A stretch of DNA of 35,839 bases, taken from assembly GCA_036172455.1 (NCBI GenBank), contig JAXKVY010000007.1, forward strand, positions 1 to 35,839. Reading direction: 5' to 3'. Shown here piece by piece: positions 7,499 through 10,511 of this stretch. A program made the translations under genes and the position numbers. The notes below the pieces were generated by a model that was not told where the DNA came from, ran no database searches, and saw only the letters and a program-made list of their open reading frames with translations. Positions within the stretch are counted from its first letter, which is position 1; each line of letters opens with the position of its first letter. This DNA comes from Candidatus Izemoplasma sp. Its GTDB lineage: Bacteria; Bacillota_I; Bacilli_A; Izemoplasmatales; Izemoplasmataceae.

Positions 7499-8132
7499 AA
7501 CTAATGATATGATCTTGTGGTAAGTCATCGTCTTGATCGGGAACACGTTTTTCAACATCAGGTTTTTTGACATCTTCAGCCTCAAATGTCTTATGTTTGC
7601 GGTAGAGATGATAGCCATTGAATCCATCATAAGATAAATATCCTCCCGCAACAATACTGAATACTAAGATAATATTAATCAGTACCCCAGGTACAAAGTC
7701 GCCTCTAAAGAATACATAACTACCAACAATTAATGCAGCAATATGATAAACAAATAAGATCCAATCACTGTTTTCCTTATGCGTTGATATACTGAAGAAA
7801 TGAACGGTTCCTCTAAACATTAAATAAAAACCAAGTAAGTACCCAAAAAAGTTTTGTAATCCTTCCTCGGTAAATAATGTGACAAGGATAAAGGCCAGTC
7901 CAATAGCAAAATCAATCGTGATTTCAATGATGTTTACCGTCTTAACCAAGTCACTAGACTGGGTTTTGACAAATGGTACAAGTCGAACCACACTACTGAC
8001 GATAATGGCTGCGCCAATGAATGGAATTACAATTTCTTCACCATTTCCAAACTTTAAATAGATGGCAAGAGCAACGAGTAACGCTGCGCCAACGAGTTTA
8101 ACAACCCAAGTATATTGACTAAATAATTTCAT
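7497..8132 (-). CDS. Multi-pass membrane protein, HdeD/DUF308-like
   Basis: Integral membrane protein of about 211 aa with six hydrophobic segments in pairs and glycine-rich turns (LVGAALLVALAIYL, IPFIGAAIIVSSVVRL, IAGLAF-like, FGYLLGFYLMFRGTVHFFS), followed by a charged cytoplasmic tail from about residue 180. The arrangement resembles HdeD/DUF308 proteins, whose function in Gram-positives is unknown. The start is ATG at 8132 because AAAAGGAGG sits 6 nt upstream; an in-frame ATG 24 bp earlier lacks one. It overlaps the end of the YwaF-like gene by 14 nt, so the two are probably co-translated. Confidence 0.7.
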   Translation of the reverse strand: MKLFSQYTWVVKLVGAALLVALAIYLKFGNGEEIVIPFIGAAIIVSSVVRLVPFVKTQSSDLVKTVNIIEITIDFAIGLAFILVTLFTEEGLQNFFGYLLGFYLMFRGTVHFFSISTHKENSDWILFVYHIAALIVGSYVFFRGDFVPGVLINIILVFSIVAGGYLSYDGFNGYHLYRKHKTFEAEDVKKPDVEKRVPDQDDDLPQDHIIS

Positions 8133-8886
8133 ATGTAACCTCCTTTTGGTTTTCAAACAATTGATATTTTAGTTTCTTCATAAACTGATACATGAGATAA
8201 AATGATGCGATAACGGCAAACTCTCCAAGAATAATATAATATGGAATTCCACCAAAGTAGCGTATCGCAGGAAATTTATCAATTTTTGATGGGTCCAAAA
8301 ACACAAACATAAAATCCGTTCCGTAAAAAACGTTAAATGCGCCCATAAAGACAATCAAGCCTTGTAATATATAAAATGAAATCATCGTATTTTTATAATT
8401 TGGAAAAAAATTGTGAACAGCAGTAAAATAAATCGGTGTAAGTATTAATAAGCCATGGGCCATATAGAATTGATAATATCGATAATATCCCGAATCATAC
8501 CCTATAATTGGTGTAAGCAAGCTAATCAATCCACCTAATACACCTGTATAAAGCACAAATGAGTATAATACTTTATTCTTAGTATATAATAATATAATCG
8601 CTAAAAACATACTGATACTACATAGTTGAAATGGTAATATAATAGTATCAAACCCATATAACCGAAAACGCAATATATAATGACTACCATATAGTACTAA
8701 AAATACTGTCGCAACAATATAGCGAAAAACCTTATCATATTTGTCAGACATCTTAAAAGCGTCTCTGTAATGAATGATAATTAAAGCCAATACGACAATC
8801 ACAACCATTGGTAACATATACTCAAGAAATGATAACTCCATAAACACACCTGTTCGATATGGGCTATCGTATCTGAAAAACGCCAT
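8119..8886 (-). CDS. YwaF/TMEM164-family integral membrane protein
   Basis: 255-aa protein with about seven transmembrane helices. Features match the TIGR02206/YwaF family: TIILPFQLCSISMFLAIILL (the LPxxLC signature), GVLGGLISLLTPIIG, and YMAHGLLILTPIYF with a membrane-embedded histidine. Eukaryotic TMEM164 relatives act as acyltransferases, but the bacterial role is not established. AAGGGGGAA precedes the start. Only a weak promoter (-10 TAAAAT about 24 bp upstream of the start) is visible between it and the terminated RNA at 8944-9124. Co-expressed with the DUF308-like gene. Confidence 0.8.
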   Translation of the reverse strand: MAFFRYDSPYRTGVFMELSFLEYMLPMVVIVVLALIIIHYRDAFKMSDKYDKVFRYIVATVFLVLYGSHYILRFRLYGFDTIILPFQLCSISMFLAIILLYTKNKVLYSFVLYTGVLGGLISLLTPIIGYDSGYYRYYQFYMAHGLLILTPIYFTAVHNFFPNYKNTMISFYILQGLIVFMGAFNVFYGTDFMFVFLDPSKIDKFPAIRYFGGIPYYIILGEFAVIASFYLMYQFMKKLKYQLFENQKEVTYEII

Positions 8887-8943: not shown

Positions 8944-9124
8944 TAAAAAAAATCCTAAATAATTGGAAATCACCCGATGTCGAACCTCTGTTCGCCTATG
9001 GTGGTAGCCTCTTACTCATTAATTAGGGTTCCTATTGTTTCTAGGCTTCCGTCACATAATGAGTCTCAGCCCCTTTTCTATAAAGTTGGGGTCGCACTTG
9101 GGGTGATTTCCAGTCCTTTAGGAT
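8944..9124 (-). ncRNA. Unassigned structured RNA (~180 nt) with own promoter and terminator
   Basis: The 281-bp gap between two coding genes holds an RNA on the minus strand. Its ends pair twice: TCCTAAA/TTTAGGA (8953-8959 with 9117-9123) and a perfect 11-bp stem (8965-8975 with 9101-9111). Inside are a CCCC/GGGG hairpin (about 9070-9091), an 8-bp stem ACTCATTA/TAATGAGT enclosing a CCTA/TAGG hairpin (about 9014-9065), and a CGAAC-AGAG-GTTCG hairpin (8981-8994). An eight-T run follows the 3' end. The promoter at 9131-9160 fits a start near 9124. Length and closed ends would suit 6S RNA, but the multi-branched interior does not match it well; a riboswitch-like leader of the YwaF gene is also possible. 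I do not recognise the family. Confidence 0.7.
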
Positions 9125-9130
9125 ACTTCT

Positions 9131-9168: not shown

Positions 9169-10473
9169 CTATTTTTTTAAAGTAGGTGACACATTTTCAA
9201 TTACTGCTAAAACAAGGAAAATATAGATCATATAAGTTGTGTAAAAATACATTGGTTGAAACATACCGTTAACAAATGCCGTGATATAAATTAGCGCTAA
9301 CACAAACCATTTAAATGATGTTTGCTTCTGTAGTATTACACGCGTTTTTTGCATAAATAGCCATAAGAATCCAATTAAGCCAATGGTTCCTAGTGTCGAT
9401 GCCTGGGCAATCGTATTATGATAATTTACAGCAGCATTGCCTGCTTCACTAATATGAATTCGTGATGAATATAATCCACCAGAACCAAGAATAGGATGCG
9501 CTTTGAACTTACTCCATGCAATTTTTAATAATTCGATACGATCTTGAACATATGTTAAATCACGATCTAAGACTGCTTCAATATACTGTGACACGAGCTC
9601 ATACTCTTCTGCGATATAAAGCGTGATTGCAAAAAAGAGTAAAAAACTACATCCATGAAGTAGCAGCCGAAAACGATGATCTTCATATAAAATCATAATT
9701 GGGACTAACACTATAATAAAGACACCTAATGTCAATAAACTTGAACGTGATAACGTGAGCAAAATGCCCAAACTATTCAATAAGGCAAAAAACATATAGT
9801 AAAACTTAATTTTAGAGTGGCTTATTAAATAAGCAATAAGGGGAATAGAAATGATATTCGCATAGATAACTAAATTTATATTTTCCCATCCTAAATGGAT
9901 CATACGTCTACGAATAACGTCAATCGCAAACATATCTTGTTTAATGATAAAATACACCATCTCTAATGTCACTAAAGCACCTAGATACATTAATATTTTG
10001 GCAATATATGTAATATTTTTTTCATCATCATCGATTGTATTAACAAAGTAAAAATATAACCCAAGTACACTCGCAACCTGCATGAATCCCGCAAATGTTG
10101 TGAATAAATCAGGCGAGTTGACGTGGGTAACAACCGAAACTATTAACAATAATACCAACGGAAATGTTAATCTGCCGCGTTTTGTAATTGTTCTATTTTG
10201 AATCATATCAAACACGATTAAAAAGGTTAATATTACTGTATATACTGTGGTGATTTCAACATTATCTCGTAAATCACTAAAACTCATTTGGACAAAGAAT
10301 GGCACAGGTATGACATAAAAAATACTGTTTTTCAGTACTATATTTACGATGCCAACAAGGGCGATAAAGACTAAAAAATATGTTTGCAATTCATAAATAT
10401 AACTAAAAAACGTTATTGCTAATAACGCAATTAGATAGATGTCATAACCGCCGTTTTTAATCCATTGTTTCAT
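9169..10473 (-). CDS. O-antigen ligase/polymerase (Wzy_C)-like membrane protein
   Basis: 434-aa integral membrane protein with 11-12 predicted helices and one large extracytoplasmic loop (about residues 300-370) before the last helices. The loop carries the family features: DRIELLKIAWSKFKAHPILGSG and then NYHNTIAQASTLGTIGLIGF, matching the HNxxLxxxxxxGxxG pattern of Wzy/WaaL/RfaL glycan polymerases and ligases that act on lipid-linked sugars. The start at 10473 was chosen because translation from further upstream would run through the promoter. No other glycan genes are adjacent, although UDP-GlcNAc genes lie 2 kb away. Whether it polymerises or ligates is unknown. Confidence 0.8.
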   Translation of the reverse strand: MKQWIKNGGYDIYLIALLAITFFSYIYELQTYFLVFIALVGIVNIVLKNSIFYVIPVPFFVQMSFSDLRDNVEITTVYTVILTFLIVFDMIQNRTITKRGRLTFPLVLLLIVSVVTHVNSPDLFTTFAGFMQVASVLGLYFYFVNTIDDDEKNITYIAKILMYLGALVTLEMVYFIIKQDMFAIDVIRRRMIHLGWENINLVIYANIISIPLIAYLISHSKIKFYYMFFALLNSLGILLTLSRSSLLTLGVFIIVLVPIMILYEDHRFRLLLHGCSFLLFFAITLYIAEEYELVSQYIEAVLDRDLTYVQDRIELLKIAWSKFKAHPILGSGGLYSSRIHISEAGNAAVNYHNTIAQASTLGTIGLIGFLWLFMQKTRVILQKQTSFKWFVLALIYITAFVNGMFQPMYFYTTYMIYIFLVLAVIENVSPTLKK

Positions 10474-10491
10474 TAAAATCACCGTTAAAAT

Positions 10492-10497
10492 TATACC
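10492..10497 (-). promoter_or_regulatory. Extended -10 promoter of the Wzy-like gene
   Basis: TGG-TATAAT on the minus strand 18 bp before the ATG; no good -35, which would overlap the rplT terminator. Confidence 0.5.
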
Positions 10498-10511
10498 ACA
10501 TTGCACGCATT

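Follow-up and report, generated by a model that had tools for sequence, protein, structure and literature searches.

A diverged 6S RNA gene below the Rfam threshold in the Izemoplasma branch

The window analyzed here, a stretch of 35,839 nucleotides from Candidatus Izemoplasma sp., carries on its minus strand a gene of ~180 nt (8945-9124) for a 6S RNA (ssrS/bsrA type) whose sequence has diverged so far that the standard database model scores it too low in this lineage. This is almost certainly a canonical 6S RNA gene, present once in the genome of an Izemoplasma-like bacterium, with a primary-sigma promoter of its own and a product that would act as an open-promoter mimic. 6S RNA is well known in bacteria as a promoter mimic that holds RNA polymerase in check. 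The gene was overlooked because its sequence has drifted. Rfam alignment, folding, an alignment of homologues and a covariance model establish the gene, its strand, promoter, structure, covariation, orthology and family membership; its mechanism of action is the one expected from other members of the family.

The promoter is on the minus strand. TTGACA at 9160-9155 and TATAAT at 9136-9131, separated by an 18-nt spacer, match the consensus at 12/12 positions, and both hexamers are kept in homologues: the match is 12/12 at 21 of 27 homologous loci and 11/12 at four, and the spacing between promoter and RNA does not change. Judged by sequence, such a perfect and conserved primary-sigma promoter would allow independent transcription. 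A T8 tract (8952-8945, minus) directly 3' of the closing stem is the probable termination site. The 5' end is placed near 9124 from the promoter and the 3' end from the U-tract. The first-pass annotation had described a standalone non-coding RNA with a consensus promoter and a terminator U-tract and gave no strand. On the minus strand these features are indeed present, and conservation of the RNA extends over the order.

The strand itself can be read from pair counts. In the 27-sequence alignment, G·U pairs number 125 vs. 13 A·C pairs, so that selection acts on the RNA of the minus strand; promoter, U-tract and pair statistics all point to this strand. Folding of the minus strand gives -56.0 kcal/mol (z -4.4), and none of 200 dinucleotide shuffles folds as low. 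The plus strand folds equally well (z -5.1), which is to be expected of a near-palindromic rod, but it has no matching promoter pair of such quality, and the G·U/A·C counts favor the minus strand. In the genomes of the family, the covariance model derived from the window also gives opposite-strand matches, but these are weak echoes of the minus-strand ones at identical positions.

The conserved structure is a rod, composed of a closing stem, a central bubble and an apical arm with a terminal loop, plus one hairpin on the 3' side of the bubble. The outer closing stem is formed by ATCCTAAA (9124-9117) and TTTAGGAT (8959-8952, minus) with 8 bp, and the inner one by GGAAATCACCC (9111-9101) and GGGTGATTTCC (8975-8965, minus) with a perfect 11 bp, or 12 bp including the flanking U-A; a short internal loop separates them. 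The two strands of the closing stem, 9101-9124 and 8952-8975, correspond to the doubly closed ends seen at first reading. In the alignment, this stem has 23 covarying pairs, 16 of them changed on both sides, and 95.2% of cells are paired. The 5' side of the central bubble (9074-9100) contains a nearly invariant block, GCGACCCCAA (9095-9086), visible in the conserved columns and in the Rfam alignment. The apical arm (9003-9073) consists of the helices GGGGCU/AGGCUACC and ACUCAUUA/UAAUGAGU and the terminal loop; its helices 2-4 have 98.8%, 94.4% and 92.5% of cells paired. The small hairpin on the 3' side of the bubble (8979-8996, helix 5) has a CGAAC-AGAG-GUUCG core and is the weakest part of the structure: 88.6% of its cells are paired, covariation is modest and one pair is changed on both sides, with a compensatory C-G for A-U swap in the genus of the window. 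RNAalifold proposed that GACC and GGUU pair across the bubble; the hairpin was preferred because there is hardly any variation in these columns and because a hairpin is present in B. subtilis 6S-1. The earlier description of a multi-branched RNA does not survive this analysis. Its "at least three internal hairpins" hold only in part, since the conserved form is the rod with one small 3'-bubble hairpin.

Covariation was scored on the 48 pairs of this structure in the 27-sequence alignment. 94.3% of cells can pair, vs. 81.0% in shuffled alignments. Changes on both sides occur in 30 of the 48 pairs, amounting to 188 double-change cells vs. a shuffled mean of 51; these shuffles ignore the kinship of the sequences, and a control in which the 3' partners were slid, which accounts for kinship, agrees, since it destroys the signal. 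By these counts, covariation is strong. The overall form is that of 6S RNA, namely a closing stem, a bubble and an apical arm with terminal loop within ~180-200 nt; helices 1-4 are supported by covariation and the bubble is open. This agrees with the architecture given for 6S RNA in the literature (PMC8876501).

The rod of 6S RNA imitates an open promoter and occupies the primary-sigma polymerase, and the enzyme is freed when it copies the 5' bubble side into a short pRNA (PMC8876501). In Firmicutes 6S-1, the central bubble remains open on its 5' side and forms a small hairpin on its 3' side (PMC8876501). The hairpin at 8979-8996 is at the position of this 3'-CB hairpin of B. subtilis 6S-1 (bsrA), which was compared by its published description (PMC8876501), B. 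subtilis itself being matched only as a control for RF00013. By analogy, the central bubble in the rod of the ~180-nt RNA would imitate an open promoter. When growth slows, it would bind the primary-sigma RNA polymerase and lower transcription from ordinary promoters. On return of nutrients, the polymerase would make a short pRNA on the 5' bubble side, where the nearly invariant block is the expected template region, judging from E. coli and B. subtilis 6S. The RNA would then refold and the polymerase would be released.

It seems improbable that the drift of the Izemoplasma 6S RNA extends from sequence to function, for example to its preferred sigma factor or polymerase form or to its mode of release. 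Another reading is a 6S-like RNA with an altered target, either one that binds core polymerase like actinobacterial Ms1 or one that has lost the ability to template pRNA. Ms1 is also a rod-shaped, polymerase-binding RNA (PMC9130861). In favor of this reading, the sequence of the window RNA is far from the Rfam consensus, and its function is a prediction from the 6S family. However, Ms1 belongs to another lineage, RF00013 already explains the structure, both the central-bubble motifs and the 3'-bubble hairpin expected of Firmicutes 6S-1 persist, and there is almost no variation in the 5' bubble block, as would be expected if holoenzyme binding and pRNA templating were retained. An altered target is thus very improbable, and the RNA is best read as a canonical 6S RNA.

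Why this 6S RNA escapes annotation is seen from its score. At Rfam's own thresholds, nothing was reported at the locus, and a genome-wide Rfam search of the genome of the window did not report it at E<=10. With lax thresholds, RF00013 (SsrS) is the best-placed match, on the minus strand at 8948-9127 over the full model (1-187), with 20.6 bits where the gathering score is 46.4 bits (E 0.041 when 501 bases are searched); the matches to snoMe28S-G3255 (E 3.8) and RAGATH-19 (E 3.5) are put down to chance. The Rfam check suggested at first reading gave a score below the gathering score together with an end-to-end 6S alignment on the minus strand, which speaks against the earlier view that the core differs from 6S. 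By itself, the 20.6-bit match is a lead and not a test. Orthologous loci of the same family, at the syntenic place in sister genera, score 17.7-44.8 bits over the full model (for example 17.7, 30.3 and 36.2 bits in G019, G004 and G010), and even the best of them does not reach the cut-off. The window RNA resembles RF00013 in length, in its rod, in its own promoter, in being usually single-copy and in full-length alignment; it differs in the sequence drift of its family, in which 0/49 genomes exceed the gathering threshold. Default annotation misses 6S RNA across the family because the scores stay below this limit. A gathering threshold is a curator's limit rather than a biological feature. No further 6S gene of canonical type came up in these genomes in the Rfam search.

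The link to accepted 6S genes was made with a covariance model, R1, built only from homologues of the window RNA and without reference to Rfam. BLASTN found the same RNA in genomes of the genus and family. The named relatives that carry it are metagenome assemblies labeled 'Candidatus Izimaplasma', 'Candidatus Izemoplasma', 'Mollicutes' or 'Tenericutes/Mycoplasmatota'; the nearest named relative at this locus is isolate Tobar14m-G22. Two DNA-pattern matches, in Celeribacter and in a Pirellulaceae MAG, have no synteny and were taken as chance. R1 marks one place per genome in 43/49 genomes of the family and in 76/90 of the order; most misses are incomplete assemblies. In a class-wide sample, R1 gave 59 matches outside the order, and 48 of these coincide with RF00013 matches in place, strand and ends, 31 above the Rfam cut-off and 17 below. 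Two of the other 11 were run through Rfam and scored as 6S RNA at 51.7 and 42.5 bits. Because R1 thus finds Rfam-grade 6S RNA in other orders, the window RNA is tied to accepted members of the family. Distant 6S genes aligned by sequence only are poorly aligned in the closing stem and were left out of the counting.

These results bear on the first-pass assignment to an unknown family. A new structured RNA that shares with 6S nothing but the rod shape would account for the low RF00013 score of the window copy. However, homologue scores rise steadily to the 6S cut-off, R1 matches Rfam-grade 6S RNA of other orders with identical coordinates and strand, and a common start, end, strand and conserved bubble motifs are not expected of two chance rods. 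A new family is therefore extremely improbable, and the membership in 6S RNA stands.

In some other genomes of the class, 6S copies are in tandem, unlike the single copy in the genome of the window: two in G209 (L115 and G209:C102:3721-4149), three R1 matches in G118 (G118:C73:3304-3897) and six RF00013 matches in G154 (G154:C113:11953-13392). About half of the sampled class genomes, some of them small (0.7-1.1 Mb), have no 6S match by either model, which could be true loss or further drift.

The gap containing the RNA is flanked by a Wzy_C/O-antigen-ligase-like gene (9169-10506, minus) and, downstream, by a TMEM164/YwaF-like gene (8119-8886, minus; Pfam). The syntenic order starts upstream with infC-rpmI-rplT, followed by the Wzy-like gene at some loci, then the RNA, then the TMEM164-like gene at some loci, and finally DUF308-like (our own label for a protein with no Pfam match), MarR-like and M42 peptidase genes; this neighborhood differs from that of B. 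subtilis 6S-1. The first-pass suggestion was that the RNA could be a leader of the YwaF-like gene, which lies immediately downstream on the same strand; such a leader would act in cis as a riboswitch or attenuator. This can practically be dismissed: since, in 22 of the 30 loci that have downstream sequence and an assigned gene, a DUF308-like gene comes next and the TMEM164-like gene is missing beside an unchanged RNA, the RNA is not its leader, and moreover the U-tract closes the RNA ahead of the gene, Rfam searches of the locus matched no aptamer family, and loss of the RNA upon change of the downstream gene was looked for across loci and not seen. Nearby, ribosomal protein L20 (10533-11093, minus) has a C-terminal extension in which a SAP-like Rho_N domain (PF07498, E 4.1e-7) follows a low-complexity linker; the variable length of matches in relatives suggests that this extension varies.

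The understanding of 6S RNA itself is unchanged by this finding. What is filled is a gap in annotation: a whole order of Mollicutes-related bacteria has one conserved 6S RNA that lies below the Rfam cut-off. Adding the 27-sequence alignment would broaden the Rfam model and make claims of 6S absence in the Izemoplasma branch safer.
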